Origin: Verrucomicrobiota bacterium
Lineage (GTDB): Bacteria; Verrucomicrobiota; Verrucomicrobiae; Limisphaerales; UBA11358
NCBI GenBank assembly: GCA_014860005.1
Contig: JACZKP010000076.1
Coordinates: 62,001 to 126,000, forward strand
DNA length: 64,000 nt
Reading direction: 5' to 3'
This document shows positions 733 through 49,016 of the stretch, piece by piece. Position 1 is the first letter of the stretch. The number at the start of each line of letters is the position of its first letter. A program made the position numbers and the translations under genes. Under the pieces are notes generated by a model. That model saw nothing but the letters and a program-made list of their open reading frames with translations. It was not told where the DNA came from and did no database searches.

Positions 733-2085
733 TCATGTTCCCGAGATCACGAGATCCGATTTACACATGAAGTAGCGGTCCTCTCTGGTCGTGCGCAAAC
801 ACGCCATGCGGAGCAGGTTTTCAAGTTCGCGGAAGTTGCCTTTGAACTCATGATCTTTGATTGCTTGGAAAGCGTCACAGCCGATCTCGGTAACCTCGGG
901 AACCTTGCGTTTAGAATCGTTAGGGTTTATGTCCGGGTTCTGGAGCAGGCAATCGAGTATGAAAGGCAAATCGTCCATTCTTTTCCGCAAGGGAGGGACT
1001 TCCTCAATGTCGGTGAATCTAGCCAGCAAATCTGGCCGGAAATTGGCTTCGCTTTGAAGGTCACTCAAAGAGAGATTCGTCGCGGCGACCACCAGCACCG
1101 GACATTCAAATGAACTGTCTTTTGTCCAACCGCGTGGTTCGACTTTGTAATCATCCATGAAGCCGAGTAATTTCGCTTGGATTGCGGGGCTGGCAGTCCC
1201 AATTTCATCCAAAAAGATCACCCCTCCGACCACGTTTAGAAGTTTGCCGATGTCGCCTTCACCTTTGCCGTCGGTGTAGGCCCCCCGCGCATAGCCGAAG
1301 AGGTCATATTCGAGCATGTCTTCTTTGTGAAGCCATTCCGGAATGAAAATCTTTCTAAAATTGCTCGCGGCACCAGTAGGGTGTTTTTCGGTCTTAGCAA
1401 GGTGCTTTGCGAACAACGTTTTTCCCACCCCCGTCTCGCCCACGAGCAGGACTCGCGGCAGGCGCTCGATAGGCACGCCCAACGCGGGAAGCCTCGAGGG
1501 ATTACCCGACCCGGCGCTTAACATTTTGTGAATGGCTTCCTTGTGTCCTCTTTTGGTTTTGTCATCAAGGTCGCATGCGTTGTGAAACCGACGGGATATC
1601 AAATCCATTCGGGTGAGCAATTCTCCCATGCTGCCGAACATCATGCTGAGCAGCGAAGGATCATGCTTCCCAGGTGATCCGCTCAGTTGGACCCAGGTGC
1701 CCTTCTCGACTTTGGGAGTCTCTCGCACGGGCACCGGCTGGAGCCATGTCGAGCAGCGCTGTGTGATCAATTGCCGCAAAGCTCCTTCAGTCGCTTCGCC
1801 CTCAATGAACCCAATTTTAAAGTCGGTGACGTTTTGCCGTCCTGCCTCCTCCCGCCAAGCCTCCAAGTGGCCCGTGTAAATCGGCAACCCTTGGACAATC
1901 ACAAGGCAACGCGTCGAATTGATTTCAGGCAAGCCATCGCAGTCACGTGGAGACTCCTCATTTGTGACCCACGCCACGAAAAACGATAAGCCATTTGCCA
2001 TTGCGGGGAGCACGGACTCCAAGAGTCTCTGGCGACCTTCATTGCTACCGAAGCAATTTTCGGAGGATTTAGTCTTTTTTGCCAT
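733..2085 (-). CDS. AAA+ ATPase of the sigma54-activator/RtcR type without a DNA-binding domain
   Basis: The 450-aa protein has an N-terminal part of about 200 residues with an alpha/beta (Rossmann-like) pattern around 60-110, then an AAA+ module. Seen directly: Walker A GETGVGKT (216-223), Walker B IFLDE (290-294), an arginine-finger region FRPDLLARF (349-357) and a sensor II GNFRELEN (416-423). These are the landmarks of bacterial enhancer-binding proteins. The GAFTGA loop that contacts sigma54 reads GAYTDG (268-273), and the protein ends soon after sensor II with no Fis-type helix-turn-helix. Its start overlaps the 340-aa gene by 17 bp, and it is the last gene of the polymerase operon. Inference: it remodels the neighbouring polymerase or its partner rather than opening classical sigma54 promoters. 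A CARF-like N-terminus, as in RtcR, is possible but not shown. Confidence 0.85.
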   Translation of the reverse strand: MAKKTKSSENCFGSNEGRQRLLESVLPAMANGLSFFVAWVTNEESPRDCDGLPEINSTRCLVIVQGLPIYTGHLEAWREEAGRQNVTDFKIGFIEGEATEGALRQLITQRCSTWLQPVPVRETPKVEKGTWVQLSGSPGKHDPSLLSMMFGSMGELLTRMDLISRRFHNACDLDDKTKRGHKEAIHKMLSAGSGNPSRLPALGVPIERLPRVLLVGETGVGKTLFAKHLAKTEKHPTGAASNFRKIFIPEWLHKEDMLEYDLFGYARGAYTDGKGEGDIGKLLNVVGGVIFLDEIGTASPAIQAKLLGFMDDYKVEPRGWTKDSSFECPVLVVAATNLSLSDLQSEANFRPDLLARFTDIEEVPPLRKRMDDLPFILDCLLQNPDINPNDSKRKVPEVTEIGCDAFQAIKDHEFKGNFRELENLLRMACLRTTREDRYFMCKSDLVISGT

Positions 2086-3091
2086 GGTCGTTTTCGTGGA
2101 GCATTGTGGTCTCGTAATTACTTAATACTTCTTGCCAGCTAGTGTCAGCTGTTTCGTTGACCCGCCGGATGAATTTCTCAAAAGGCATTGTTCCGCGAAT
2201 CGCAGAAGACTTGTCACCAGCAGCGTCTCGTCGTCTGGTGACATCGCGTAATTTGTCCAGACGTTCGCGCAACGGCTTGGATGATTTGCGGGCGAAAAGC
2301 ACCACGGATCGTGCCACCCAAGCCAGCCGGACTTGCTTTGAAAAGAGGATTTGCAGCGACGCGGAACCGTCATCAGCCCATGCTAACTCACACCGCTGCA
2401 CATAGCGGGAAAAGGTTTCCTCGGTCAGCGAAGCAATTCCCAATATGGCCGGCATCTCTTTCTGCATAACGGCGCAATAGCGCTCCACTTCTTCAAGGCT
2501 CGCGGGACCGAGATGCCAGAAATCACCCGATTTCAGAAAATCGGGTCTGTGCAAGTTGAGCCAGGCTGCCAATTGACGGAAAACGCGGCAGCGAGTTGCA
2601 ATTTCACTCAACTGCTTCTCGGCGCGCTGGGACTCCGGCTTATATGACCACGCCCATTCTAAACTGTGAAACGCACAAACACCGTCAGAAATAACGAGTT
2701 CAAATTTGTCATTCTCGCCCGAGATCTCGTGCGGATTTGCGCCACCCCCCAGGACAACTTCATTCATACCTTGGTTGCTCGCCGCTCTCCACAACTCAAT
2801 CGGCTCGACATCCTCATCCTCCGGGTAGGGCTCGATGTCTTCGGTTTCTTCCGGATTGACGGCGCGCTCCCCTGCTTCGGGCGACGGGCGGTCAATAGCC
2901 ACGATCTCGCCTTTAGCTTCAAGGCGGGCAAAATGTTCGGCGATCGCTTTGGGTCCCGCTTCGCGCACGAAGTCCACTTCCGCCCCCAAGAGCGCTTTAG
3001 AAGATCGATCGGGAATCCTATCCCTCCGTCGATCCCGTTTATTGAGGTGCGCGGGACCGGTGCCTCGCCGAATTGAGGGTCTTTGACTCAT
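2069..3091 (-). CDS. Unknown protein encoded directly after the fused RNA polymerase
   Basis: The 340-aa protein starts within the stop codon of the polymerase gene (ATGA overlap at 3088-3091) and overlaps the AAA+ gene by 17 bp, so the three are probably translated together. The first 35 residues are very basic and rich in Arg; residues about 75-100 form an acidic stretch (EETEDIEPYPEDEDVE); the remainder looks mostly helical with several conserved-looking Trp residues. I see no zinc ribbon, helix-turn-helix signature, RpoN box or sigma70 region. From its position it could be an assembly, initiation or specificity factor for the polymerase, or the client of the AAA+ ATPase. That is inference from neighbourhood only. 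Confidence 0.8.
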   Translation of the reverse strand: MSQRPSIRRGTGPAHLNKRDRRRDRIPDRSSKALLGAEVDFVREAGPKAIAEHFARLEAKGEIVAIDRPSPEAGERAVNPEETEDIEPYPEDEDVEPIELWRAASNQGMNEVVLGGGANPHEISGENDKFELVISDGVCAFHSLEWAWSYKPESQRAEKQLSEIATRCRVFRQLAAWLNLHRPDFLKSGDFWHLGPASLEEVERYCAVMQKEMPAILGIASLTEETFSRYVQRCELAWADDGSASLQILFSKQVRLAWVARSVVLFARKSSKPLRERLDKLRDVTRRRDAAGDKSSAIRGTMPFEKFIRRVNETADTSWQEVLSNYETTMLHENDHGKKD

Positions 3092-6000
3092 TTTGATTTC
3101 CTTTCATCTTCGCGTGTTCGGCTTCCGAACAAATTGAAAAGAACGCGCGCGGCCGGTTCGTTGGTAGAAGCAGACTCATTCTTGCAGGCCGCGAGCAGAA
3201 TGTGCCGACGCTGTCGTTCAAAGGCAATCCGTGTAAGGAGCCCGCCCGACTTTGTAACAGAGCTAAGCGATTTTTCCGGGCTTTTGTGAATTGCCCGCCA
3301 AAGGATTTCCAGATGCCGGTCGTCCAGGCCTTTGTAAGCGTTCGCCTCTTTCATGCGTTGGACGAATTCCGGCGCGAACCGCGGGTGATAAAAGAACCTG
3401 GGTTTTTCCGCAAGCTCGCGCGGATATGCACATTCCAGCAGCATCCTGTTAAGACCGGCACTAGGAAGCTTTTTAGGAGTCTCCGGTTGCTTGGCGTGGT
3501 CCGGCTTTTGCGGCCTGCGCGTGGCTTCAATCAACTCCACAATTTCTGGGGGCAGTGTGATGCCCTCAAACCGCTGCGGATCATAGATTACCTTCTTAAG
3601 AGCCCGATTTAGTATTCCCAGGACGGCGCGCTCGACCCTCCGATTCTCACCGCCAGTAAACTCCTTGAGTAACTGTTTAGTTTGACCCTTCAACTTCGCA
3701 GTCAGGTATTGGGAAAGTTTGTCCGATTCACTCGGTTGTTTGAACCTGGCGACCAGCGCCTCCAGATCAAGGAGGTCTTCCCTTGTGAATACCGCACCGA
3801 TGTCTCCAGTGTGATCCAGAGACCGCTGCACATCCTGCATGCTGAAGACCCTTTGGGTCGTGTGGAAGCTTTGCATGGAAAGCTGCGTTCCGCGTTCACC
3901 AATTGATTGGGCTGCGATCAGCCCGGCAGGAAAACCGATTGCCGGCCTGGCTGCCCCCGGCAAATCGCCATAGCAGGCGGCGCAGATGCCCTCGGTGCAT
4001 AGGCAGGTGACTGGACTTCGCGATTCGCTGGGGTTCCCGCAGTCATCTTCCACCACACCAACCGGCCAAAGCGCCGTAACTAAGCGGCGTGTTAGGTAAC
4101 CGGCCTTCCTTGTCCCCAGCTTCTTATCGCACATCGAACTCCTCGAATTCATTGCTCCAAAGAATGCCTCTTCCGACGACATGCCATTGGCCAAGGCGCT
4201 CTGAACCAGGAACCGGTCGGTGGGACAATCAAAGTCCAGCTTGCCTGGGTCGAGAACACCCCGAGCACCTATGAGTTGTCGGACCTGTTGCTTTCCCCGA
4301 GCACCGGAGAAAGCCATGGCTGCGAAATGCAGACCGGGACGCTCGAAGATGTCTTTGCCGCCATCGAGCGAACCCTGCTTGACCAGATCCAGCAAGGGTT
4401 TCTGAACGAGCTTGTTTAATTGCGCGTGGAGGTCGGCTTTCACGTCGTCCTTGACGCCTTTCAACGCAGCAGTGCTTTGCTCGCGGCACTGGCTTGCAAG
4501 CTTAGTAAGTTCGTAAAACCCAAACGAAACACCGAGCTTGGAACAACACTCGTAAGCAAGGTTGCTTAGCTTCCAGATCACCTCTGCGGCTGCGTCGCGG
4601 TGAGCTTTCACCAGATGTTCCAGCAGGTCGGATCCGTTCTTCTGATCGAGAACGTGGCCTCCAACCCACTCGCGACAGCACGCCTCGGGCAGGATTTCGA
4701 GCAATCGTTCCCTGAACCCAGATTCTTTCCGGCTCGCCCAATATAATCCCAATACAAAATCCTGTTCGTATTGGGCCAGCACTCCAAAACTCTTTTCTGG
4801 AAGTCCCAATTCATACCGCGATTTGATCCGGGACTTGTCGTCATCATTCTCGGCTGGCAAAACCTCTCCAGTGGCGAGGGAGAGCATGTTCCTGGAAGGA
4901 AGCATCGTTGCCGCGTCGGCACGGGACGCGGCTGAGAGTGGAACATGAATCGCCATCTCATCACCGTCAAAATCCGCGCCGAATCCTTTGCAGACCAAAG
5001 GACTTAACTGCAGGACTTCGCCGACCTCGGGCAGCAAAGGCTTCGGACGAAATGCCTGGATGCTGTTACGATGAAGCGACGGTTGCCGGTTGAGGACGAT
5101 CAACACCTCAGGATGGTCTTTCAGAAAACGTGAAAGCAACCTGTGCCCCTGATCGAGAAGCGCTCGGTCTTTTCCGGATTTTCGCCAAGACCAACCTTCC
5201 AGGATAGCGGCATCGCTATTGTCGGCAGTCAGAACGGACGCCATCTCTATCAGGTCGCCGCTCTCTCGCTTCTCCTTCATCCAGCGCTTCAGCTCGGGTC
5301 CCATCAATTCAAGGAGGACGGCTGTCGGCACGCCGGCTTCATCCCAGCGGAGTTCAGGATTTGGGATGATAACCAAACGCGCTGAACAATCCACGCGCCG
5401 TCCCAAACCATCGCGACGGATCAGTCCCTCTTTTCCACTCAACCGCCTGGCAACAAGGCGGAACAAGTCCTCCACCGCATTGGTCAGCACCCTCAGCGCT
5501 TCAGCCTTCTTGGCATCGTCCGCCGCCATTTCGTATTGCTGGGTGGCGCGCAGAATCGGAGCATAGCCGTCCTGGATCAGCGGGTCGCGCGTGGCCGAAT
5601 TCGAACCGAGGAAGAGCATGCGATAGCGGGGGGGCAGGACTGGGATCACTCGGACGGGAGGCAGCTTCTCCCTTGGCACCTCGTGCTTCTCAAGAAACTT
5701 ATTTACTTCTTCATTCGGGCCAAGGAAGGCAGCCACCGGATAAGGCACTTCTACTGGCAACTCGATATAGGCCCAGTTCTTCTTGTCGTCGATTGTGCCA
5801 GCGGCTTTGAATGACCCGAATAGGCTCTCGTCAAAAAACCCTCCAGCAGCGATCCCCAGCTTCTCACCGAACGGGGCCTTGCCTTTAAGCGGGGTGGTAT
5901 TGTGTCCATTCGGACAAGCGACGCTCATCTGGCCAAAACGTCGTGTTCCCGTGTGCTTCAAGAACGCGCGCAACACCAAGCTTCCGTCCATGTTGGATGC

Positions 6001-9000
6001 TTCCGGTCCGCTCTTGCCTCGCGCGAGCATATCCGGGAAGGCGTCTTCGAGGAGCATGCGGTTCAACTTTCGTAATCCCTTGCGCCGTGGATTCGAGTTC
6101 AGGAGTTGACTGGTCTCCGGACGCAGGCGTACAGAGCCAAACCGCTGCTCCTCATAAATACTTTCGCCGGAAACTACTTCATTAAGGTCCGCGACCAGGC
6201 TTTCGAGCAAATGAGTCGCCTCTGGCCCAACGTCTAAGCAACGTTTAGTTTCATCAGATAATCGACTGACCAAAAAGGCTGCTATGGCATCGAGTGTTTT
6301 CTTTTTGAGTCTCGCGATGAATCTGGGCACATCCACAATATCACCAACCGAAAATGTCGAGGAGGGACGGGTAAACTGTGCGTAAAGCGGCAGCTCCTTC
6401 ACCGAGTCCGGCCAATTGGCTGGTTTATCTTTTGGATCAATTGCAATGGTTGCTTTGACCTGGTCGTTGGTCGGGGTGATCGAGACCTTAAGGAGACCAG
6501 CCGGCCGGGCAAAACCTTGCGCGTGTGCAATCCGATCTTTTTCCAAATCGAAGGCTTTCGTGAGCGTGCCATCAGAAGACGGCTCGGCTTTGAAGCAAAG
6601 CCGAACATAATAGCCGCTACCTTTGCGTCGGAGCGGTCCGTCAATCACTAAACCCAAATGGTCGAGAAATTCTTCCAAGTTGAGGGATACTTGGTTGCTC
6701 TTGGCGAAAGGTTCTTCGACGGCAATACGTGCTCCATCCAGGAGTTCAAACGGGCATCCACCTTTCATCTTTGATTGGCAGGAAAACGATGCGAGAACCA
6801 ATTTCTTTACGGACGCGGAATTAATAACCTTTTTGCGTTCTCCAATCCGCTTACGCGCAGAGGCCGCATCCATAAAAGAAAAGCCGAATCGCCGATCTTC
6901 CGCCCGGAGGTCGATCAGGAGTGAGAAAAGCCAGTCCTTGAGTCGCTGCGGGAATCCTTCAAATGTCTTCTGCGTCACCTTTGGTTCAGCCCCGGGAAGA
7001 TGGCCGGCAAGGATCGAGTCGGCCTTAACACCCAACATTTCCTCCAGGATGTGATCAGCTTGGTAGCCGGCCAAAGCCCACACTTCCATTTCACCAACGC
7101 GCTGGCCGCCCCCAATCAGGCGTCCGTGGATCGCCTGGCCTGTATCGCGGGAATAGATCGCTCCTTCGCCACCTCGTCGAGCCTGGGACTTCAACTCCGG
7201 AACGTGCTTCAGCCGGACGATGTGCTGAAACCCAACGACGACCGGCGCAAGGGTCCTGGTCCCATCGGGGAGAACAAGCTGAATCCGGCCGAAACGATCC
7301 AAGCCGGTATCGCCCAGTAGTTGCTGGACTTTGGCGTGATCCAGGGCCTGCAAGAACGGTTGACCGATGGGTTCGTCCGGTTGCACTCCGTTCTTGAGTA
7401 GCTGCTCAGGCTTGCAGCCGGCTTTCAACAACCAGCCAACGTGAGTCTCAAGCAACTGGCCCAGATTCATGCGAGAAATCACTCCGTGCGGATTAAGCAC
7501 GATATCAATGGGCCGGTCCTGCAGCTCGGCCGGTAGCCTCTTGTCTTTGGGCAATCTTGGCATCTGGTTTGCCGGTAGAATGGCCCCGACAACCCCCTTG
7601 TTCCCATGCCGTCCCATCAGCTTGTCGCCTACGCCCAAGTTCAAGTATTTGACCAATTCGTAATTGAGCGTGCCCCGCATCCATTCGGGCACATTGGGAG
7701 GCCGGATTGATTTGACTCTCGCGGGGGAACGATCCTGATAGAGCACTTCCCGCTTGATATCCTTCTTGCCGCCCTGCAACTCAAAACGGGCGATCAAGTC
7801 GCCGCCAAACAACACGGAACCTTCAGGCGCAAGCCAGCTTATTTTCCAGCCCGGTTCGACCGGCACCTTGAATCGTTGCGAAATTTGGATATCCAGCAAG
7901 CCCTCTTGGAAATCGGTTTGCTCACGCCGAAAAAGCGATCTGTCGTCCGACACTGCGCGACCCACCACCTGCTGCCCGACGACGATCGCATCGTCCACGT
8001 TCATGCCTTTCCAAGGCAGATACGCCACGAGCAAATCGACCCCAAGGGCAGGTGCACCTTTCTCGTCGACAGCCGCAGGACAAGCGCCGATTTCAACCAA
8101 CGGGTTTACGAGCTGCTGTACAGCCTCTTCCCCTCCGGTCTTCACCAGAGGAGATTGGCGTCCGGCGACGGGTACCGCCTGGCGCAGATTCTTCGCTCCC
8201 ATCATGCAGCGGGCACCATCGTTATGCTCGTAAAATGGGACCAAGCCGGCACCCAATCCCAATTCCCCAATGGGTTTCGTGCGATCAGCGGGCGAAATTA
8301 TACCTTCCCAGTTTACCTTTGCGCCCCGCGCCAGTTGGAGTGAAAGTCCGACCAACTCCGACTCAGGGCTCTGCACCGGGCAAATGCATCCGCGGAATGA
8401 GGGATGATTCTGGCGGTAATTCGCCGGCAAATTGGCCAAGACACTGTGCGCCATCGGATAGCGGCGCACCTGAGTCAGCAACGCAGCCAGGTCAACCGGA
8501 TTGGTTGGGTCGACCCATTGCAGCGGGGCGAAGCGGTTTTTCCCCTCGTCTTCCGAACCACGGGACCAGTTGCGAGGTCGGAGTCGCATGGCCAGGGCTT
8601 CCGAGGGGTTCATCTGCAAAAGACTTTGCCACAGGCTTCTCGCCAATTCATTGTCGATCGCAGTCCTATGTTTTATTGCTTGAAGCAATGCCTTGGTATT
8701 GACTCCAGAAACCTCGAGCAAGGTGGTCACTAATGCCCTTGCAAGCGTGGCCTGCAACCAGACCGGGAAGGTCACTAATACCCGATGATTGAGTTCGTCC
8801 TCATCGGTTTCTTGAGCGTCCCGCGCTTGAGCGTCGGTGTGGGCCTTCGTGGCCAGATCATTAATCAGCCTCCAGAAGCCACCGCTTTCTTCTTCTTTTT
8901 CTTCACCAAGAGTAAAATCCACCAAACCGTTCAGGTCATAAGCTCGTTGCAAAAAGCTGGGCCAAGCCTCACGGGATGGGAGGATGCAAATGTTCTCTGG

Positions 9001-9456
9001 AAAAGCGTGGCCCTTTTCTTTGTTGCTCAACGGTCCACAGGGGGACTGGACGTAACTGCCGCCCGGCAAACCCACGCGCCAGAATACTTCCTTGGCCTCC
9101 CCATGCTTGCGAAAATATCGGAAGCCGGTTCGCTCACCCAGCCAAGAACCCCAAACCGCAAATCCGGCTAAGCCAGTTTTTTCCTGGCGCTTAATAAATA
9201 GTCCGTGATACGGCAATGGAATCTCAAGCGTCACCGCCTCCGCAGGCATTTCGTTCCATTTCAAGATGACTTTTCCGAGAAGGTCGAGGTTGGCTGTGGC
9301 GTGGTGCTTCGCAGTAATGGCATCAGGCACAAGCAATCCCACGGACAGGTTCTCGAATATGGCGCCGAGCACACTCTTCAAATGTGCCGTGGCAGCTACC
9401 GACCATGACTCTATTTCAGCATCAGTCTGCCAAAAAATACCAGACGGCTGTTTCAT
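3088..9456 (-). CDS. Single-chain DNA-directed RNA polymerase, beta/beta-prime fusion
   Basis: One 2122-aa polypeptide carries both catalytic subunits. Beta landmarks in order (numbered from ATG 9456): CPVQSPE (359-365), EHNDGARCMMG (410-420), GDKLMGRHGNKGVV with both catalytic lysines (about 610-622), DIVLNPHG..SRMN (about 651), GGQRVGEMEVW (783-793). Beta-prime landmarks: GLGRRVDCSAR (1350-1360), NRQPSLHR (1456-1463), the catalytic ADFDGDE with Asp 1495, 1497 and 1499, bridge helix SGARGKQQVRQL (from 1717), YLTRRLV (1787-1793), the second zinc site CTEGICAACYG, and trigger-loop flank AAQSIGERGTQ (1848-1858). It is far shorter than the E. coli subunits combined (about 2750 aa). The four-Cys N-terminal zinc ribbon of beta-prime seems lost; only CPNGH remains near 1181. 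ATG 9456 has AAAAAGG upstream and lies 45 nt after a conserved motif; ATG 9492 is the alternative. The core is catalytically plausible. Confidence 0.95.
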   Translation of the reverse strand: MKQPSGIFWQTDAEIESWSVAATAHLKSVLGAIFENLSVGLLVPDAITAKHHATANLDLLGKVILKWNEMPAEAVTLEIPLPYHGLFIKRQEKTGLAGFAVWGSWLGERTGFRYFRKHGEAKEVFWRVGLPGGSYVQSPCGPLSNKEKGHAFPENICILPSREAWPSFLQRAYDLNGLVDFTLGEEKEEESGGFWRLINDLATKAHTDAQARDAQETDEDELNHRVLVTFPVWLQATLARALVTTLLEVSGVNTKALLQAIKHRTAIDNELARSLWQSLLQMNPSEALAMRLRPRNWSRGSEDEGKNRFAPLQWVDPTNPVDLAALLTQVRRYPMAHSVLANLPANYRQNHPSFRGCICPVQSPESELVGLSLQLARGAKVNWEGIISPADRTKPIGELGLGAGLVPFYEHNDGARCMMGAKNLRQAVPVAGRQSPLVKTGGEEAVQQLVNPLVEIGACPAAVDEKGAPALGVDLLVAYLPWKGMNVDDAIVVGQQVVGRAVSDDRSLFRREQTDFQEGLLDIQISQRFKVPVEPGWKISWLAPEGSVLFGGDLIARFELQGGKKDIKREVLYQDRSPARVKSIRPPNVPEWMRGTLNYELVKYLNLGVGDKLMGRHGNKGVVGAILPANQMPRLPKDKRLPAELQDRPIDIVLNPHGVISRMNLGQLLETHVGWLLKAGCKPEQLLKNGVQPDEPIGQPFLQALDHAKVQQLLGDTGLDRFGRIQLVLPDGTRTLAPVVVGFQHIVRLKHVPELKSQARRGGEGAIYSRDTGQAIHGRLIGGGQRVGEMEVWALAGYQADHILEEMLGVKADSILAGHLPGAEPKVTQKTFEGFPQRLKDWLFSLLIDLRAEDRRFGFSFMDAASARKRIGERKKVINSASVKKLVLASFSCQSKMKGGCPFELLDGARIAVEEPFAKSNQVSLNLEEFLDHLGLVIDGPLRRKGSGYYVRLCFKAEPSSDGTLTKAFDLEKDRIAHAQGFARPAGLLKVSITPTNDQVKATIAIDPKDKPANWPDSVKELPLYAQFTRPSSTFSVGDIVDVPRFIARLKKKTLDAIAAFLVSRLSDETKRCLDVGPEATHLLESLVADLNEVVSGESIYEEQRFGSVRLRPETSQLLNSNPRRKGLRKLNRMLLEDAFPDMLARGKSGPEASNMDGSLVLRAFLKHTGTRRFGQMSVACPNGHNTTPLKGKAPFGEKLGIAAGGFFDESLFGSFKAAGTIDDKKNWAYIELPVEVPYPVAAFLGPNEEVNKFLEKHEVPREKLPPVRVIPVLPPRYRMLFLGSNSATRDPLIQDGYAPILRATQQYEMAADDAKKAEALRVLTNAVEDLFRLVARRLSGKEGLIRRDGLGRRVDCSARLVIIPNPELRWDEAGVPTAVLLELMGPELKRWMKEKRESGDLIEMASVLTADNSDAAILEGWSWRKSGKDRALLDQGHRLLSRFLKDHPEVLIVLNRQPSLHRNSIQAFRPKPLLPEVGEVLQLSPLVCKGFGADFDGDEMAIHVPLSAASRADAATMLPSRNMLSLATGEVLPAENDDDKSRIKSRYELGLPEKSFGVLAQYEQDFVLGLYWASRKESGFRERLLEILPEACCREWVGGHVLDQKNGSDLLEHLVKAHRDAAAEVIWKLSNLAYECCSKLGVSFGFYELTKLASQCREQSTAALKGVKDDVKADLHAQLNKLVQKPLLDLVKQGSLDGGKDIFERPGLHFAAMAFSGARGKQQVRQLIGARGVLDPGKLDFDCPTDRFLVQSALANGMSSEEAFFGAMNSRSSMCDKKLGTRKAGYLTRRLVTALWPVGVVEDDCGNPSESRSPVTCLCTEGICAACYGDLPGAARPAIGFPAGLIAAQSIGERGTQLSMQSFHTTQRVFSMQDVQRSLDHTGDIGAVFTREDLLDLEALVARFKQPSESDKLSQYLTAKLKGQTKQLLKEFTGGENRRVERAVLGILNRALKKVIYDPQRFEGITLPPEIVELIEATRRPQKPDHAKQPETPKKLPSAGLNRMLLECAYPRELAEKPRFFYHPRFAPEFVQRMKEANAYKGLDDRHLEILWRAIHKSPEKSLSSVTKSGGLLTRIAFERQRRHILLAACKNESASTNEPAARVLFNLFGSRTREDERKSK

Positions 9457-9501
9457 ATTGTGGCTACCTTTTTCCGGGTTTTTGATGTTCATTCAAATTG
9501 A

Positions 9502-9517
9502 TACTGCAACCCACAAA
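9502..9517 (-). promoter_or_regulatory. Conserved upstream motif, copy 1 (before the RNA polymerase)
   Basis: The minus strand reads TTTGTGGGTTGCAGTA, 45 nt upstream of the polymerase start at 9456 and inside the gap after the CYTH gene. It matches three other intergenic copies at 32315, 49017 and 49980 at most positions. The consensus is TTTGTGG(G/A)TT(T/G)CA(A/G)TA. I see no good sigma70 -35/-10 pair attached to it. It may be a promoter element or an operator; which one is not resolved by sequence. Confidence 0.6.
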
Positions 9518-9646
9518 TGAACTGCTGAGATTCATCGCGTCTCACTCGTCGTGCATCCCCCGGGGGAATAAAGCCCAAGTCCGAATTTGTAACAGCATTG
9601 GTACCGACAACCTTTACTTTTTCGGTTTTGCCATGCCGGACGGCAG

Positions 9647-10291
9647 TCAAGTGATTGTTTTATGGGCACTTGCTCCCAAAAGACGATCCAATTTGCTCTC
9701 ATACACCCTTTCGAGCTTTACCTCGTGCGCCATCAGAGCGGCGCAGTTCTCGAAATCTCGCCGCTCGCCGGAAACCAGCTCCACTTCGACTTCCGATATC
9801 GTGGCTCCAGATTCCAGAGAACTTAGAACATCCCAAGACACCTCAAGTTCCAGGGCCGGTCCCCGGAGCAAGGCCTTCTGGTGTTTCCCGACCAACGCAA
9901 GGACCATCCGTGCGGTGGCTCGCACGTCCGCTAGTCGCTGGCGCGCCTCGCCTTCAGGGACTTTCTCAACAAGCTGATCAATGACCTCCGGGAGTGCAGC
10001 GGGCATGTCTTTCTTTATCGAAACCTCCAATGTTGCCCCCGAATTATCATCAGCTTTGAAATCGTAGCGACACCACTCGCCGGGGGCGATTACGCAACGG
10101 AAGCGGCAACCAATTTCCTTTAGTCTGCTTCCATCATCAAAGTAAACATGAATTCGATGAACCACCGCTTTCCTAACGCACTCGAAACCTTTCTGTCCAC
10201 TCAGCCAACTCAGAATTCGCCCGAACTCGGCGTATCCGCCTAGAAATTTGGCTTCCACCTCAATGGGAGGGTTGGTTAGATTGAATGTCAT
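9647..10291 (-). CDS. CYTH-domain (triphosphate tunnel) protein
   Basis: The 214-aa protein has the family-defining ExExK near its N-terminus (EVEAK, residues 11-15), then alternating charged strands typical of the tunnel barrel: IHVYFDD, FRCVIAP, YDFKADD, LEVSI and finally ISEVEVELVSG. CYTH/TTM enzymes bind metal and hydrolyse or transfer phosphates of triphosphorylated substrates such as thiamine triphosphate, tripolyphosphate and RNA 5' ends (fungal Cet1), or make cAMP (class IV cyclase). Its start overlaps the kinase stop (ATGA at 10288-10291) and the next gene downstream is the polymerase. Removal of 5' triphosphates from the polymerase's transcripts, or hydrolysis of a signalling nucleotide, are attractive roles, but the substrate cannot be read from sequence. 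Confidence 0.85.
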   Translation of the reverse strand: MTFNLTNPPIEVEAKFLGGYAEFGRILSWLSGQKGFECVRKAVVHRIHVYFDDGSRLKEIGCRFRCVIAPGEWCRYDFKADDNSGATLEVSIKKDMPAALPEVIDQLVEKVPEGEARQRLADVRATARMVLALVGKHQKALLRGPALELEVSWDVLSSLESGATISEVEVELVSGERRDFENCAALMAHEVKLERVYESKLDRLLGASAHKTIT

Positions 10292-13200
10292 AGCGTGCTC
10301 ACTTTGGTGTTACCGAAGCCGTCGCGCAGCACCCGCCAACACCAGGCTTGCAGATCCGGGGGCAGGTCGGAACGGGGCCGGAGGACGACCAGCCAATTCT
10401 TTCCAAAAAGGATGGAGGCCATTGGATGACTGCTCTTGGCGATCTCGGAATAGAGCCCGTCAAAGTAGGGCACATGCACCTCGGGAAAAATGTCCTCATA
10501 CTTTAAACGGAAGAGGAAGGCCGCCATATCGTGGAAGCCATCTGTATCAGCCAGACATTTGAGTTCCTTGCATTGCACTCCTTTCAAGTATTGCGGAGAA
10601 ACGATGCGGGAAAGATTCAGGATGAAATCATCGTGCGAACAGCTTCCCGCTACGGTAGGGGCAGATGTTGCGGCAGTCTCAATTCGCTTCAGCGCTTCGC
10701 GGAGTTTTCCCATCTGTTCGTAAAACTCGGTTGGAAGCCTCCCTTGGAGAACCTTGCGTTCGTCATCGCTGAGATCCGACCAGACTTTTGCGGCTAGTAA
10801 CTTCTGGCCGAATACAATCGTCGGCGCATCACCGTTATTTTTCCAAGATATAAGCTGGCTGCTGTCGAAGGGCGAAACCTCGACCTCGCCATCGGCAAAA
10901 ACGTTCTTCCACATTGCTGACCACTTGCCTGAAATATCTGTTACATCCGCAGCCCCCAGCAGCGTGTGAAACTTGGAATCATAGCCGGTAACGACCTGAA
11001 CGTCGAAGCTAGGGATACCCATCACGGCTTTCTTGGCCGAGATGGACGTCATCGTGAGATGGTTCACTTTCATGCAGCCGCACTCCTTGCGGAGCTTCAT
11101 GAGGATTTTATCCACCTCGCCAAGGGCTTCGGAGGTTTCAACCAGTGCCCATCCGTGGGTATCCAGTGAGGTATTGGCCGCTTCCTCGCTCCGGCACAGC
11201 GGGATTCCAGCCTTTTCGAGAATATCAATGGTGCCTCCCGACTCGCCCCTTGATGAAATCTTGATAAGCGGTTTGTCGGGCTGATCCGGATCCGCCAGGT
11301 GCTTGAGCATCTCGAAGGAAGGATACGTGTTCCCAGGACGGCCGGTAGAGGCGTAGTCGATGTAGTTTTTCTCAGTCTTATCTTTGCGAGCCTCCGGGAA
11401 TTGGGGGGCCATGTCGGTCGGGCGCGAGGCCTGAACCATCGCCTTCGTGAACACAGCCAGTGGCACGGCTTCCTCGGCCTTCTTGGCCAAGTCAAAATCT
11501 CTTACATACCAGAGCAACTCGTGCATCCAGCGATTGCGACCTGGCAGATGCTTGTCGCGCAATAGCCGCAGCAATGCAGTCCAATCGTCGTTGTTTTTAT
11601 AGTCGGGAAGCTTTTTTAATGGGGTGAACGCACCTTTGGAGAGCACATCAGAGAGGACTTTCATCAACGGCTGAGAGCTTCCCTCGGAACGTGCTTTCCG
11701 CACCGCATTAACTGCCTCCCATACGGCCTGCTGTTGGACCGAGCGCGTATCCGATTTCGTATCGGATATTGCATTCGGTTTCGTATCCGCCGAGGCGATG
11801 ATCCCGTTCTCGGCATCCAAAGCTTCGAGTAGTGCCTCCAGCTTCCAAAGAATCACCTTTGCCGGGAAAGGCGCGTTCGGATGCTTTCCGGACTGGTAGA
11901 GGTGCTTGAACTTGAGGCAGCACATGGCGTAAACCACCCGTCCTAGCAGGAACTCCCGACCGCCGATCCCGAGGTCTTCAACCCGCTTGTGGACTTGCTT
12001 CAAGTAGGCAACCAACCCCTCGAATCGCTCCTTCAAGCTCTCGGGGACAGCCGTGGGCTTCTTCTCAAATTCCTCCCAAAGGTGGCTGACATCCGAAACC
12101 CTGCGAAGGTTGAGCGTGTCCTCGAATCGGCGGAGCATGCGGCGGGAATCCTGATCATTTTCAACGCATCCAATCTGTCTCAACTCCCAGAACAATTCTT
12201 GGGCGATTTTGTGGTAGGCCTCGATTTCTAGCTTGGCGAGGTCGAAGACAACCGGACGGTCGTCCTCCGCTTTGTCAAAATCGATGAGCCACGGGAATAG
12301 GCCGTCCCCTTTCTCGTGCAGGAGGATGTTCCCGAGGTTCAGGTCGCCATGGGTTGGGCCGATATGGAATTCCTCGCTCCAGTCAATCGGATGCCACGGA
12401 TGGAAATAATCACGACACCGCTGCCAAGCGGCGTTGTTCGGTTTCACACCGTTGCCAGATTCGAGAATCCCGTTTGCCTCAAGCAGCTTCTCAATGCCGT
12501 TTGTCCAGCCAGCGAGCAAATACTTGCGGGATTCGTTCTGTTGGTCGCCGCCATTTTTTCTCTTTCGTGTGATTTTGAATGAAACTGGCAGTCCAACCAG
12601 TTTGATTGGGCTATGCGCTAGCGATGCCCATCGCTTTGCTATTGCGGCTTTTGTTTTCTTGGCATCGGGTTCCTTGCCGTAGCCAATTTTCAAATCTACT
12701 TTAACGCCAAGAGTGTGCTCCAATAGCCGCAAGCGTGATTCGTTCGGATTGATTTCGTCGATTTCCAAGCTCTCGATGGCCAACCCTGTGATGTCACGGC
12801 AGTCTCCTTCGCCCTCGCCATTCCACCAATCCTCCACCGTTTTCCAGCGTCGATAGGCCATCTCCCGGCGCGATCGCGCGTCCTTTCTGCTCAATGCGTT
12901 TTGCGTAAAATCAAACGGCTCCACGCCCGAATTTCCTGGCGCTTCAAAGTTGATCTCGATATGCGCCGGGCTAACTCGATCGAATGCCTTGAACACGCTC
13001 TTCGCCCGTTTGGTAAGGTTTCCTTGATAAAGCGGGTCGAGCACGCCGTCGAAAATTTCATCCACGAGCTGCACGCACTTGTCGGGTTCGGAAAGTCGTT
13101 TCCTCAGCCAATCCTCTAGGCTGCGGGTTGATTTTGCAGCAATATCGCGAATCGCCTCCTCGGGTGCGGCGAAGCTTTGGGACATCCCGCACCACTCTTC

Positions 13201-14259
13201 GTAGCGGTAGGGACCGGTGAGGACGTGGGCAACCGACGGTCCGAGACAGCCTGCAAAGACGTCGCGGTAACCCTTTCCTTCCCTGGCCAGAGCCCGCCAA
13301 TCCTTGCTCAATTTGATTTGGACTGGCCGAAGCCAACGGCCATTGGCAGTCTGGCCGCGCACAACGAAAGGGCGTTCCGTTCTGGATTGGCCCTCGCCAA
13401 AGAAGCGCAGAATCTCGATCCCGGTGGCATCCGGCACCAAGGCCCGGAGCAGGCGCTCAACAGGCGGCTCGGACTTGCCTAGCAGATCAGTTTCGGTCAG
13501 TTCGAAGGCATCAAGAAATTTCTTCCGGCATTCCCGAGCATCCGGAGTCGTGGCGAGGATGAAATCGCCATCGGAAGAGCCCACCGGGGGACAGTGATAA
13601 CGGGCAAATTCCCATTCGAGGAGGCGGAACCACAATTTTCCCGCATCGAGAATATTGTCCTCCTTGGGGTTCCAATCGTCTGGCAGATCATGGTTGAACC
13701 GCAAGCCTTCCGGCTTGTCGAAGCAGCTTGATGCGCCTAGCTGCATCGCCCTTTGGAGAACGTGTTTGTCCTGGATCGGCGACCAGACAAAGATTGGCAG
13801 ACTGGGCTTGGCACGTTTGATCAGGCGGATCAATTCCAGCCCGAACCAAGGCGCTTTGTTAGTAGCCTTCTCCTCCCGGTCGCAAAACTCCCACTGCATA
13901 TCCACAATCGCAGCCAAGGGGCGACGCAGCCGCCGGATTTCCGCTTTGATGATCGGCAGCAGATCATCGGCGCTGCTGCCTCCCTTGGTATGACGCTCAT
14001 GCACGGGCAAGACCGGGCGGCCGACATCGAAGAACTTCTCAAGCCCTTCCATGCGGTTCTTCCATTCGGTTGCTATCTTCTCGTTCGCGATCCCTTCCAA
14101 ATCGTCCAGGACCAAAATGCCTGGTTTGCCGCGAATCTGAGTCAGCGCATCCAATGCCCTCATCGCCTCGGTTGGCTCGACCCAACGGGATTTGCCCTCA
14201 CCGTCACCGGCGAGGGCCTTCCATTGGTCATTCGGAGATTTAAGCTTTGGTTGATTCAT
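10288..14259 (-). CDS. Receiver domain fused to an aminoglycoside-phosphotransferase-like kinase
   Basis: The 1323-aa protein opens with a CheY-like receiver: acidic pair LDD (51-53), phospho-acceptor VD120, switch Ser160 and KP at 182-183 are all in place. A kinase-fold region follows: a VQIK-type lysine at 316, a catalytic HGDLNLGN (637-644) and a metal-binding IDFD (659-662), the order seen in APH/choline-kinase-like phosphotransferases. A large insert of about 250 residues separates the two lobes. Residues about 830-1323 are unrecognised. It overlaps its upstream neighbour by 20 bp and the CYTH gene by 4 bp. Family knowledge suggests phosphorylation of a protein or small molecule; coupling to receiver phosphorylation is inference. 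APH-like domains are known in bacterial conflict 'ternary complex' systems, which may be relevant. Confidence 0.85.
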   Translation of the reverse strand: MNQPKLKSPNDQWKALAGDGEGKSRWVEPTEAMRALDALTQIRGKPGILVLDDLEGIANEKIATEWKNRMEGLEKFFDVGRPVLPVHERHTKGGSSADDLLPIIKAEIRRLRRPLAAIVDMQWEFCDREEKATNKAPWFGLELIRLIKRAKPSLPIFVWSPIQDKHVLQRAMQLGASSCFDKPEGLRFNHDLPDDWNPKEDNILDAGKLWFRLLEWEFARYHCPPVGSSDGDFILATTPDARECRKKFLDAFELTETDLLGKSEPPVERLLRALVPDATGIEILRFFGEGQSRTERPFVVRGQTANGRWLRPVQIKLSKDWRALAREGKGYRDVFAGCLGPSVAHVLTGPYRYEEWCGMSQSFAAPEEAIRDIAAKSTRSLEDWLRKRLSEPDKCVQLVDEIFDGVLDPLYQGNLTKRAKSVFKAFDRVSPAHIEINFEAPGNSGVEPFDFTQNALSRKDARSRREMAYRRWKTVEDWWNGEGEGDCRDITGLAIESLEIDEINPNESRLRLLEHTLGVKVDLKIGYGKEPDAKKTKAAIAKRWASLAHSPIKLVGLPVSFKITRKRKNGGDQQNESRKYLLAGWTNGIEKLLEANGILESGNGVKPNNAAWQRCRDYFHPWHPIDWSEEFHIGPTHGDLNLGNILLHEKGDGLFPWLIDFDKAEDDRPVVFDLAKLEIEAYHKIAQELFWELRQIGCVENDQDSRRMLRRFEDTLNLRRVSDVSHLWEEFEKKPTAVPESLKERFEGLVAYLKQVHKRVEDLGIGGREFLLGRVVYAMCCLKFKHLYQSGKHPNAPFPAKVILWKLEALLEALDAENGIIASADTKPNAISDTKSDTRSVQQQAVWEAVNAVRKARSEGSSQPLMKVLSDVLSKGAFTPLKKLPDYKNNDDWTALLRLLRDKHLPGRNRWMHELLWYVRDFDLAKKAEEAVPLAVFTKAMVQASRPTDMAPQFPEARKDKTEKNYIDYASTGRPGNTYPSFEMLKHLADPDQPDKPLIKISSRGESGGTIDILEKAGIPLCRSEEAANTSLDTHGWALVETSEALGEVDKILMKLRKECGCMKVNHLTMTSISAKKAVMGIPSFDVQVVTGYDSKFHTLLGAADVTDISGKWSAMWKNVFADGEVEVSPFDSSQLISWKNNGDAPTIVFGQKLLAAKVWSDLSDDERKVLQGRLPTEFYEQMGKLREALKRIETAATSAPTVAGSCSHDDFILNLSRIVSPQYLKGVQCKELKCLADTDGFHDMAAFLFRLKYEDIFPEVHVPYFDGLYSEIAKSSHPMASILFGKNWLVVLRPRSDLPPDLQAWCWRVLRDGFGNTKVSTL

Positions 14260-14690: not shown

Positions 14691-15983
14691 TCAAGACGTC
14701 GTCCATTCCACGCCTTCGGGCGGATTGTAGCTCCAGTTTGCGCCAGTGGACTGGACGTAGTCCTCAATATGCTGCGCAAAGTCGGCGAAGCCGTTCTCGC
14801 GAAGACAATCTTTCACTCGCTTCATCCGTGCCCGAAAAAGTTGGGCGGCGGGAGAGTCCTTACCTCGACGATCTTCACCGAGCTGATCGTAGTTGCCGCC
14901 TGCCGCGTGGAGGTCGTCTTGAGCGAATGCACTCGGAGTCAAGCTGCCGCCTTCTTCAGACGCGTTCTCGCTTGGCTTCATCCGCTGGTAAGCGGTTTCG
15001 GCTGCGTCAGCAAGCGGACCCAGTTCTCGAACAATTCGGGCGATTTCGGATTCCTCCGCCGTGGTCAGGTCTTCGTCATCCTCGAATTTGCGCAATTCAC
15101 AATACCGGCTGAACTTCAAAGACAGCGCTGCGCGGATCAGTTTCTCTTGTTCCTGTGTGGTAAGTTCCTTCCATCCAATTCCTTGAGCCTCAAAGTAGGC
15201 CGCCACCGGGTCTTCACCTTGTTCCGGGCGGGCAGGCGTCCTTTCCGATTTCGGTTCGATGGCGAGGGCTTCCTCCGGTGTCACTGAGACATTCCGGTCT
15301 CGGGAAAGAAGATAATGCAGGGTTTTGAACCCGGATAAACTGGGCAGTGTCCGGATTTCACCGCAATCGAAGCGGATTTGCCAATGCACAGCAGAGGTTT
15401 CGATGAATGTGCGCTTCCGTTTCTGGCCTTTCGGCTGTATCACCCGTTCAAGGCTCGCCACCTCAATTGGACGGAATATGTAACGCAATCGGCTGACCTC
15501 ATCATAGACCAGCGCGATCTGTTCAATGCGGTTGGAGAGCAACGTTTCCGCCTGGCTCTTTTCAGTCGATGCCGATGGTTTCTCGACAACCAGGAGTCGT
15601 TCAGCGGGAAACCGGGCATAGGCGTCCCGTCGGAGCTGCTTGCGCAGCCGTTCCCCAGTCAAGCTTCCCATCGTCCCATCCACCGTGACATCCAATTCAA
15701 CGCCAGTCAGCAAAGCAACCATCCACGCCGAGTGAAAGCGCTTGAGAGTATCCAAAACGTCAAGTCCGCTCAAGATTGCGTCCCCAAGGTTCACATCCAA
15801 TGAGACAAAGTCGTATGGACTCGATTTCGCATCTTTCGCCAAACGCCTCGCTGCTTCGGCCGTCACGGCCTGCTCGATGAGCGGTTGATAGCCGTGATTG
15901 GTAAATACTGTGCGATACAAGCCGGTGAGCTTGGCAAGAAGCTGCGGCTCGTCTTCGACGATTAATATGCGGAGAGATTTCAT
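14691..15983 (-). CDS. Response-regulator-like protein with a non-standard output region
   Basis: The 430-aa protein begins at ATG 15983, inside the stop of the preceding gene (ATGA overlap). Residues 1-140 form a receiver: VEDE (acidic residues 10-12), phospho-acceptor Asp63 in SLDVNLGD, Thr93 in LLTG and Lys135 in VEKPS. The rest has no recognisable DNA-binding domain. It contains a basic linker (PKGQKRKR), then a mainly helical C-terminal half rich in Glu, Arg and Lys with a Pro/Ser-rich break. Family knowledge says the receiver should be switched by phosphorylation. No histidine kinase is identifiable in this operon, so the phosphate source is unknown. It probably acts through protein contacts with its neighbours. 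Confidence 0.85.
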   Translation of the reverse strand: MKSLRILIVEDEPQLLAKLTGLYRTVFTNHGYQPLIEQAVTAEAARRLAKDAKSSPYDFVSLDVNLGDAILSGLDVLDTLKRFHSAWMVALLTGVELDVTVDGTMGSLTGERLRKQLRRDAYARFPAERLLVVEKPSASTEKSQAETLLSNRIEQIALVYDEVSRLRYIFRPIEVASLERVIQPKGQKRKRTFIETSAVHWQIRFDCGEIRTLPSLSGFKTLHYLLSRDRNVSVTPEEALAIEPKSERTPARPEQGEDPVAAYFEAQGIGWKELTTQEQEKLIRAALSLKFSRYCELRKFEDDEDLTTAEESEIARIVRELGPLADAAETAYQRMKPSENASEEGGSLTPSAFAQDDLHAAGGNYDQLGEDRRGKDSPAAQLFRARMKRVKDCLRENGFADFAQHIEDYVQSTGANWSYNPPEGVEWTTS

Positions 15984-16759
15984 TTGGGGGTCTCGGCCCG
16001 GTGGGGAGACAGCCACTCGGCAAGCTGCTTCGTCCCATCCATCCACTCCTGCGGCGTGACAGATTCGGTCCCGGCTGCCTTGAGCCAACTGCGCAGAAGG
16101 TTGCCATTTCGATGACTGGGGGGGCGACAAAAAATATCCAGTAAGTATTCACAGCCCGAAAACGCAGCCACAACCGCACGGACCGCCTCGCGGAGCGTAT
16201 TTTCATCCCTTACCGCTGCCGCAGTACGGAGACTTGCCAGCGAGGCGTGCTTTGCATCTGCTGCCCGATGCGCCCAAAGGGGAACTAAATCCATCGGCGG
16301 CACGCTGGCCAGCAGTTCGAGTAGATCCGTGAAGGACCCCGAGCGCCGCCACACCGCATGGCCTGTGTTTCCGGGATCAATCCGAGGAAGACCAAAACCA
16401 GCGGCAAGAGCCGTTTCAAATTCCTTCGAAGCGTGCGCTGGAAGGACGAAAATAAAGGCCAATTCATGCTGATCACCGGCCGGCGACAGTTTGCCAACCC
16501 AATCCCAAACCGCCTGATGGCATTCAAGGGCATCGGCGGCGGACATGCTCCCAGACACCGCAAGAATAGCTCGCGAGAGTCGGTCCAAGACTTGGGGATA
16601 TCCTCTGTCATTGTTCGCCTCTGGTCCGGCTTGAAGCTGTCTCAAAGGAAGGGCCGCCGCTCCCAGCACGGATGACAGTGCTAACGCATATAGACCGTCA
16701 CCAGTCAGCAACGTCTCTGGTTTGTCGGCGAACCATTCATTTGGAATAGGGGTAGGCAT
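15980..16759 (-). CDS. Unknown protein of the receiver/kinase operon
   Basis: The 259-aa protein starts 7 bp after the receiver-DUF3800 gene and overlaps the receiver gene by ATGA. It is rich in Ala and Leu and looks largely helical, with one strand-like stretch (LAFIFVLPAHAS, about 100-111) that might be the core of a small alpha/beta domain. There is no signal peptide, membrane segment, metal site or nucleotide-binding motif. Tight packing between two receiver-domain genes suggests a partner or scaffold role. I cannot name a family. Confidence 0.8.
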   Translation of the reverse strand: MPTPIPNEWFADKPETLLTGDGLYALALSSVLGAAALPLRQLQAGPEANNDRGYPQVLDRLSRAILAVSGSMSAADALECHQAVWDWVGKLSPAGDQHELAFIFVLPAHASKEFETALAAGFGLPRIDPGNTGHAVWRRSGSFTDLLELLASVPPMDLVPLWAHRAADAKHASLASLRTAAAVRDENTLREAVRAVVAAFSGCEYLLDIFCRPPSHRNGNLLRSWLKAAGTESVTPQEWMDGTKQLAEWLSPHRAETPK

Positions 16760-48887: not shown

Positions 48888-49016
48888 TTTGTTTTCATTG
48901 TTTGGGTTTATTTCGTTGATGCTCGTAAGGTGGGGACTATGCGTGGATTCCCGTCCAGCGGCCTTTGCCCATGCTCTCTCCCCCCGCTGTGTCCACGCGG
49001 AATGCCGCCCTTCGTT

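Follow-up and report, generated by a model that had tools for sequence, protein, structure and literature searches.

In a Verrucomicrobiota bacterium, three overlapping genes encode an RNA polymerase made of a single chain, a predicted sigma-54-like factor and an AAA+ ATPase of the sigma-54-activator type. We consider it likely that together they form a self-contained transcription machine that is triggered by a signal and distinct from the host RNA polymerase. The genes lie in a 64,000-nucleotide stretch of contig JACZKP010000076.1, here called the window, and follow each other in the order polymerase, sigma-like gene (4-base overlap), AAA+ gene (17-base overlap). A preliminary description of this DNA had read the polymerase as part of a signalling operon; it overlooked that the two downstream genes belong to a sigma-54-like factor, as predicted here, and to its activator class, and the explanation therefore changes. 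The features concerned, all on the reverse strand, are the following.

733..2085 (-): sigma-54-activator-type AAA+ ATPase, 450 aa (PF00158, E 2e-27, 96.4 bits against a cut-off of 20.2)
2069..3091 (-): predicted sigma-54-like factor, 340 aa, its start overlapping the polymerase stop (ATGA)
9456..3088 (-): single-chain RNA polymerase, a beta-like and then a beta-prime-like half, 2122 aa (Pfam, hhalign)
9457..9646 (-): upstream gap, 190 bases before the polymerase start (from the sequence)
9647..10291 (-): 214-aa protein, co-directional, outside the conserved core (no Pfam hit)
10288..14259 (-): 1323-aa signalling/conflict protein with a TCAD9 domain (PF19974, E 4.2e-18)
14691..15992 (-): receiver-domain protein, 433 aa (PF00072, E 7.9e-7, 29.7 bits against a cut-off of 30.2)

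The product of 9456..3088 is a two-barrel, multisubunit-type RNA polymerase. Its reading frame is uninterrupted from 9492 to 3088; the methionine at 9456 has AAGG 5' of it, and translation could alternatively begin at the in-frame upstream ATG at 9492. Pfam finds Rpb2_3, Rpb2_6, Rpb2_7, Rpb1_2 and Rpb1_5 in the one chain (lowest E 6.8e-36), and Rpb2_6 and Rpb1_2 occur together in 116 of the 120 listed relatives. In hhalign profile alignments, residues 307-859 align with the host RpoB (E 5.3e-67) and residues 1267-1870 with the host RpoC (E 1.4e-67). A Foldseek search with an AF2 model of residues 1-1180 retrieved RNAP beta subunits (best E 3.5e-25). Counted over 115 aligned rows, namely the window protein and 114 of the 120 listed relatives (six of <=1500 aa were excluded), the beta lysines K612 and K620 and the aspartates D1495, D1497 and D1499 are invariant (115/115), as are the four Zn2-type cysteines where aligned (115, 113, 113 and 113 rows). 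The trigger-loop Met is kept in 114/114 rows and the trigger-loop His in 112/114, and the bridge-helix region and the flanks of the trigger loop are likewise conserved. The earlier claim of a 2122-aa chain with the catalytic landmarks of both beta and beta-prime is thus borne out. Compared with the normal enzyme, the profile alignment shows a 17-residue gap at what we take to be the position of the rudder loop, and the trigger-loop position that presumably corresponds to R933 in E. coli numbering is Gln in 98/114 rows and Arg in 10/114. A dN/dS of 0.18-0.22 in three pairs of relatives indicates purifying selection. No polymerase model in PADLOC matched, and Pfam named no alpha or omega gene among the 38 window proteins scanned; the single-chain polymerase may use the host alpha.

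Comparison of genes and genomes supports the view that this polymerase is an extra enzyme and not a housekeeping fusion, because its relatives coexist with separate rpoB and rpoC, form a tree group of their own and are sporadic in their presence. Natural housekeeping fusions have the order beta, then beta-prime, and this shared order speaks for an ordinary fusion as in Helicobacter or Wolbachia, an explanation which we nevertheless find scarcely credible and have rejected on the tree and on the separate genes of the relatives. Among 19 genomes carrying a polymerase relative, rpoB is separate in 17, rpoC in 17 and both in 16, the three exceptions being draft genomes. In a quick tree of 53 rows, including 13 canonical enzymes, 29 single-chain rows and 11 viral single-chain RNAPs, a branch with an SH-aLRT of 100 parts the canonical enzymes from all single-chain rows but one (28 of 29); that one, L017, has a very long branch (L numbers denote related loci, G numbers their genomes). 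The family is found in 5/387, 13/345 and 1/395 sampled genomes (E <= 1e-35), in samples that include genomes previously known to carry it. On the point of an extra polymerase, the preliminary description is therefore supported.

The product of 3091..2069 is predicted to be a sigma-54-like factor by fold and profile tests, not by family thresholds. Its predicted layout runs from N-terminal helices through an acid-rich linker and a helix-turn-helix region to C-terminal helices; the family ranges in length from 178 to 379 aa, and the acid-rich stretch is present in 25/29 of its proteins. In VIA-align, the top 21 of 27 rows for the model are sigma-54 (Z to 10.6; the next is 2.6), and in the first 15 rows the alignment of the N-terminal helices, predicted at residues 29-59, begins at sigma residue 10-20; the profile scores 34.1 against sigma-54 with a maximum of 20.8 in 200 shuffles. 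By hhalign the same comparison gives a probability of 14-18% and an E of 0.0014-0.0021, and Foldseek ranks sigma-54 chains first at a non-significant E of 0.59-2.7. The HTH-like motif 'ExxxSRY...LxWPxGxxPLxxLF' is aligned to 'HESTISR...KYxxTPxGxxElKxFF' of sigma-54. PF04552 matches one of 25 family rows, below its threshold (E 0.0016, 18.6 bits against 22.8), and NCBIfam TIGR02395 likewise only one of the 25 (E 0.0088). The C-terminal RpoN box, a motif that host RpoN does show, was not seen by eye in the alignment, and the compact members stop shortly after the HTH-like motif. A search of the profile against PDB sequences gave no sigma-54 match (best E 0.084, unrelated), and the C-terminus weakly matches restriction enzyme models (E 0.0018 and E 0.036). 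The profile and the AF2 alignment contain rows from L015, L016 and L021 that were placed by position only; none of these three small genes is supported as a sigma-like gene, and that of L016 is probably noise. No single sequence test places the window's protein in the sigma-54 family.

In the third gene product, a motif alignment gives Walker A and B, a GAYTDG loop and an arginine-finger-like motif, and the RtcR/PspF models of PADLOC match the AAA+ part (E 5.5e-36). A GAFTGA-type loop is kept in nine of the 12 polymerase-adjacent AAA+ proteins read; it is exact in L007 and L009, and degenerate in L004, L006 and L013. Pfam finds no C-terminal DNA-binding HTH in the window ATPase, which ends after the lid; some bacterial enhancer-binding proteins (bEBPs) lack this HTH as well. 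In L004, L005, L006 and L093 an RtcR CARF-type N-terminus is combined with the sigma-54-activator AAA+ domain.

The set of three is conserved beyond the window. Sequence searches of 27 further loci found the sigma-like gene in 19, the AAA+ gene in 18 (at E <= 1e-4, a cut-off that alone cannot separate a dedicated from an ordinary activator) and both in 15; in nine of these 15 the two are direct neighbours, on the same strand in L002, L003, L007, L009 and L012 and convergent in L004, L005, L006 and L008. By sequence, no sigma-like gene was detected in L018 or L021, the two loci with the clearest absence of RpoN from their genomes, and no AAA+ gene in the available DNA of L001, L015, L017, L077 and L079; the DNA of L010, L011, L014 and L091 ends early for the AAA+ search. 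The polymerase of L079 has a sigma-like domain fused into it at residues 1823-2011 (18.0 bits, domain E 1.3e-5); among 174 proteins, no other has such a domain at E <= 1. This fusion is one weak-to-moderate match.

One could suppose that the ATPase acts on the ordinary RpoN holoenzyme of the host to switch the operon on, while the polymerase initiates independently of sigma. RpoN scores above the family cut-off in 12 of the 19 host genomes and the loop is intact in L007 and L009, as this would have it, but the sigma-54-like gene adjoins the polymerase and is once fused to it, and in G018 (a single-contig chromosome) and G019, where no RpoN was found, the best sigma-54-activator domain is the one adjoining the polymerase, the others being weak (E 4e-8 or worse); we hold the explanation to be improbable. 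Four draft genomes (G006, G007, G013 and G014) have no clear RpoN, yet 8-11 activator domains each, and RpoN may simply be absent from these assemblies.

The three genes move between phyla as a cassette: between L007 (Bacillota) and L009 (Thermodesulfobacteriota), DNA homology is confined to them (78% and 69%), and the flanks show no match at E <= 1e-3. This transfer, together with the sporadic presence of the family, would also suit the private polymerase of an integrated plasmid- or virus-like element, transcribing the replication and transfer genes of the element and not serving the host. A tRNA-Ser and an integrase stand directly before the polymerase in L001, an integrase beside it and a DNA polymerase A nearby in L079, and viral contigs encode single-chain RNAPs of their own. 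Against this, the viral single-chain RNAPs tested, 11 in number, cluster apart (SH-aLRT 100); among plasmid and phage records, none matches the query over 80% of its length in one place, and the best places all stay below 60% identity; and the neighbours vary by locus, many of those scanned being signalling, restriction or effector-like and not replication genes. We regard such an element as possible but rather unlikely. A search of viral contigs gave 17 loci with matches of 25-55% identity, mostly over short parts of the query, and on these matches and the separate cluster of the 11 viral enzymes a viral origin of the family was rejected.

The cassette often adjoins restriction or conflict genes. 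For the window, the preliminary description had named a kinase, receivers, a CYTH protein and an AAA+ ATPase: the ATPase is confirmed by PF00158, one receiver falls just below its threshold, the 'kinase' is the TCAD9/kinase-like protein, and the 'CYTH' label of the 214-aa protein, which has no Pfam hit, goes back to an ExExK-like start read by eye. The 1323-aa protein also has a receiver-like N-terminus, by eye, and a weak match to Glycos_transf_3 (nucleoside-phosphorylase-type; PF00591, E 4.3e-4, below cut-off), and in L012, the locus of the cultured Methylobacter psychrophilus Z-0021, a TCAD9 protein again lies upstream of the polymerase (PF19974, E 4.7e-18). Proteins with vWA domains occur in the window at 31248-32231 and 46452-49106, and no MoxR was named adjoining the polymerase.

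By analogy with sigma-54 transcription, we propose that the sigma-like protein would attach to the polymerase, position it on a promoter and keep the putative complex closed. A signal would cause the AAA+ protein to assemble and hydrolyse ATP, and its GAFTGA-type loop would shift the sigma-like protein, so that the DNA melts, the complex opens and transcription begins. The signal is probably received either by the variable AAA+ N-terminus, RtcR-type CARF in several relatives, or by the upstream receiver and TCAD9 proteins, and the machine probably serves mobile or conflict functions, transcribing putative target genes independently of the host enzyme. That the cassette, mobile and found in several phyla, is a complete orthogonal system, independent of the host RNAP, of RpoN and possibly of alpha, which in defence or on a mobile element would keep genes switchable when an invader seizes or shuts the host polymerase, is a further proposal to which we give about even chances.

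A different role has also been considered, in which the polymerase would make RNA as an effector or signal, for instance from RNA templates, and would be triggered by the small protein and the ATPase. The polymerases of crAss-phage and of RNA silencing are single-chain RNAP relatives with other roles, and the RtcR/CARF-type N-terminus in L004, L005, L006 and L093 belongs to a class tied to RNA damage. Both halves of a DNA-dependent RNAP are retained, however, as are the Zn2-type cysteines, the bridge-helix region and the sequences that flank the trigger loop, and a sigma-54-like partner argues for promoter DNA, which leaves this role slightly more doubtful still than activation of the host RpoN. 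A fused crAss enzyme is mentioned in the excerpt of PMC7481178.

With sigma-54 (RpoN)/bEBP transcription, as far as the excerpt of PMC7057263 describes it, the cassette shares an activator-type AAA+ protein with a GAFTGA-type loop and a partner for which a sigma-54 fold is predicted and which has an acid-rich linker and an HTH-like motif. Unlike RpoN, the sigma-like protein is small, shows no RpoN box by eye, lies below family thresholds and is predicted to be dedicated to the single-chain polymerase of its own operon; unlike bEBPs, the window ATPase has no detected C-terminal DNA-binding domain. The polymerase resembles cellular RpoB/RpoC and the natural fusions in domain order and catalytic residues, but differs from the cellular enzymes in its separate deep group, its compactness, the rudder gap, the trigger-loop Arg that is mostly Gln, and in being additional to the normal enzyme. 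Jumbo-phage/mReC RNAPs are likewise extra enzymes related to cellular ones, and an alpha-less core is reported for jumbo phages (PMC7598289 and PMC7481178, in excerpt); unlike these phage RNAPs, the present family occurs in cellular genomes; it has a predicted sigma-54-like partner, of a type that the excerpts do not mention, and it is distinct from the 11 viral single-chain enzymes in a tree into which jumbo-phage/mReC proteins were not entered by name. RtcR-RtcAB regulation, as partly described, has its counterpart in the four RtcR CARF-type AAA+ relatives, but these adjoin a private polymerase, and no rtcA or rtcB was recognised among the scanned neighbours. The TCAD9 proteins encoded upstream of the polymerase, in the window as in L012, recall ternary conflict systems, but an RNA polymerase enzyme as a component sets the cassette apart from those described in the excerpts of PMC7159879 and PMC8195603, the RNAP-association module in the latter being GreA/B-C plus a PIN protein.

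No description of such a polymerase/sigma-like/AAA+ system was recognised in searches of open-access papers. Bacteria are taught as using one core RNA polymerase, regulated by the swapping of sigma factors. If our reading is true, a chromosomal, horizontally moving second polymerase with its own sigma-54-like switch is an exception to that rule; its minimal set of one chain of ~1600-2100 aa, one sigma of 220-340 aa and one ATPase would offer a minimal model for polymerase opening by sigma-54 and AAA+ activators as well as an orthogonal ATP-gated expression tool, and would hint at ways in which immunity or mobile elements get round the host enzyme. The same reading is also relevant to the origin of the sigma-54 family and of separate RNAP lineages.

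The cassette's own promoter could lie within 9457..9646. The window as a whole shows no enrichment of -24/-12 sites (27 against 36.5 expected), the upstream alignments of the Kiritimatiellae-type loci gave no defensible sigma-54-type site, and no target gene common to all related loci was found. In several rows of those same alignments an extended -10-like stretch of the TGGTAAAAT type stands before the polymerase, where the host enzyme probably recognises it. The alignments also show a conserved leader of ~60 bases before a downstream 367-aa gene.

The single-chain RNA polymerase of the window is very probably an extra enzyme and not a housekeeping beta/beta-prime fusion, and two neighbouring genes, a predicted sigma-54-like factor and a sigma-54-activator-type ATPase, quite probably form with it one self-contained, signal-triggered transcription machine.

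9456..3088, minus strand: single-chain beta/beta-prime polymerase, 2122 aa
2069..3091, minus strand: predicted sigma-54-like factor, 340 aa, overlapping the end of the polymerase gene
733..2085, minus strand: AAA+ ATPase, 450 aa

The preliminary description had already read the polymerase as additional, and evidence from relatives now supports this. Of 19 genomes bearing a relative, searched for the core domains of beta and beta-prime, 17 proved to have a separate rpoB and 17 a separate rpoC; 16 have both, and the other three are draft genomes. In the tree that the same description had proposed as a check (53 rows, quick IQ-TREE, LG+G4, SH-aLRT support only), a branch with support of 100 places 13 canonical enzymes away from 28 single-chain rows, and 11 viral single-chain enzymes are likewise set off from those 28 by a branch of support 100, with a long-branch warning for the loci L015, L016 and L021 and uneven letter make-up in most rows. 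The viral enzymes, which form a separate group, are encoded by IMG/VR contigs (L028-L044), whose own single-chain RNAPs are about 1800-3200 aa long. The outlier L017 sits elsewhere on a very long branch; this 1155-aa single-chain RNAP (L017:9113-12580, Armatimonadota draft genome) has no recognisable partners, and no smaller chain with the two catalytic motifs was met in the loci examined. Elsewhere in the window, a sigma-70-type protein is 81% identical to one in a Verrucomicrobia draft genome, which makes a verrucomicrobium the probable host.

The description of one 2122-aa chain with the landmarks of both subunits is borne out. The reading frame (9492..3088, minus strand; Met at 9456) is intact, the Pfam domains are Rpb2_3, Rpb2_6 and Rpb2_7 for the first half, with Rpb1_2 and Rpb1_5 following in the second, and profile comparisons align residues 307-859 to RpoB (11 host proteins, E 5.3e-67) and 1267-1870 to RpoC (10 host proteins, E 1.4e-67). 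In an alignment of 115 rows (the window and, after removal of six of <=1500 aa, 114 relatives from the 120 listed), no row departs from the catalytic lysines and aspartates, and four Zn2-type cysteines are likewise invariant wherever aligned. The trigger-loop His is conserved in 112 of 114 rows, while Gln occupies the presumed trigger-loop Arg position in 98 of 114; the profile comparison also shows a 17-residue gap at the presumed rudder location. Three polymerase pairs give dN/dS of 0.18-0.22 and the enzyme is therefore under purifying selection. Fold prediction, also proposed earlier, was run on residues 1-1180; the model is only moderate in quality (pLDDT 65.7), yet the 50 Foldseek matches listed for it come from RNAP beta subunits, the best at E 3.5e-25. 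The best VIA-align row spans model residues 1-783 at an rmsd of about 24 A, so domain content alone was taken from it; the model suggests a compact protrusion/lobe for the divergent N-terminus. Nine relatives (P0101, P0102, P0104, P0105, P0112, P0114, P0115, P0118 and P0120) carry in the same chain a precomputed NUDIX domain (PF00293).

The family spans several phyla and is rare. The protein search scored 7999 candidates, and among the 120 matches listed 116 combine Rpb2_6 and Rpb1_2 in one chain. A locus scan of one genome per species, using family-specific fragments and limited to two peptide patterns, returned 27 loci, about 16 of which clearly belong to the family; the phyla include Verrucomicrobiota, Lentisphaerota, Kiritimatiellota, Bacillota, Thermodesulfobacteriota and Pseudomonadota. 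At E <= 1e-35, which would miss more distant members, the polymerase occurs in 5/387 genomes of one phylum, 13/345 of a class and 1/395 of another phylum, samples that contain genomes already known as carriers.

Searches by sequence detected the sigma-like gene in 19 of the 27 loci and the AAA+ gene in 18; 15 loci have both. Among the misses are contigs cut off too soon (L010, L011, L014, L091) and members that have diverged (L015, L016, L017, L018, L021, L079). The two genes adjoin directly in nine of the 15, on the same strand in L002, L003, L007, L009 and L012 and convergently in L004, L005, L006 and L008; one gene intervenes in L013, and in L078 and L092-L095 they lie 3-5 kb apart. In L001 and L077 the sigma-like gene is present, with no AAA+ gene found within the locus DNA searched. 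In L015 the place of the usual pair after the polymerase is taken by a 296-aa gene, an AAA_5 ATPase and a 495-aa gene (5268-8957). A conserved 367-aa gene with no Pfam match follows the sigma-like gene in six of 11 loci searched (L077, L078, L092-L095).

The small protein is tied to the polymerase by a fusion: in L079 the sigma-like profile finds a match at residues 1823-2011 of the polymerase (18.0 bits, domain E 1.3e-5), the one case among 174 proteins >1100 aa. Against the sigma-54 reading count a low hhalign probability and the placing of some profile rows by gene position only. In activator AAA+ proteins, the GAFTGA loop contacts sigma-54. Among 12 AAA+ proteins read, the loop is exact in L007 and L009, closely varied in seven (GAYTDG in the window) and degenerate in three. 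No sigma-54 was found in two relatives' host genomes, a single-contig chromosome with the record title Micropruina (G018) and a draft (G019), and the best sigma-54-activator domain in each is the AAA+ adjoining the polymerase; against the machine reading, the sigma-like gene is unrecognisable in both polymerase loci. The G018 polymerase frame is broken in the sequence record.

Sigma-54 logic acting on a private polymerase is the most economical reading. We infer, beyond the gene set, that the sigma-like factor would recruit the polymerase, that the complex would be kept closed and that a signal would bring ATP-driven opening. A -24/-12 scan of the window found no promoter. Sigma-54 initiation is already known, as are extra phage RNAPs and natural beta/beta-prime fusions. 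In the open-access literature searched (most subscription papers and bioRxiv fall outside this scope), we recognised no description of a second RNAP that cells carry, that can be transferred and that has a sigma-54-like factor and an activator of its own; we rate the system as categorically new, though each of its parts is a variant of a known family.

L007 and L009, from different phyla, match in DNA from base 8506 to 16870 of L007, inside the three genes and interrupted once, by about 270 bases that do not match; outside these genes no match was found in 20 kb (E <= 1e-3), which thus sets the bounds of the cassette. In L001, tRNA-Ser, an integrase and the polymerase are consecutive, and L079 has an integrase and, farther away, DNA polymerase A. 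The survey, covering part of the flanking genes, met in L005 a PD-(D/E)XK-like gene (weak match, E 0.0035) adjoining an AAA_5 ATPase, in L008 a pair homologous to these two, TCAD9 proteins in the window and L012, receiver/HD-CE/nucleoside hydrolase genes in L003, a Tle1-like lipase in L077, an SbcC-like protein in L094 and ResIII helicases, after the 367-aa gene, in L093 and L095. AAA+ proteins of L004, L005, L006 and L093 bear an RtcR CARF-type domain, a class linked to RNA damage and repair. Because of these neighbours and domains a conflict or stress role is favoured. Plainly metabolic neighbours occur too (BtpA and Fer4 proteins in L002, melibiase in L095), and among the neighbours scanned none outside the set of three turned up in every locus.

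A conserved element of about 120 bases, ending near a TATAAT-like sequence, occurs once in L005, upstream of its AAA_5 gene (4645-4764), and twice in L008 (3470-3589, 4520-4630); Rfam gave no match. In the window, a very long minus-strand cluster (733-49994) includes SprT-like, vWA-PKD and tubulin-like (Tubulin_2) genes, two HerA-type ATPases and an IS21 transposase pair; it also holds TraG/D-like, vWA and DSP phosphatase genes, a radical SAM protein together with an oligopeptide ABC transporter, and a run of four genes (314-1021 aa) with no Pfam match.
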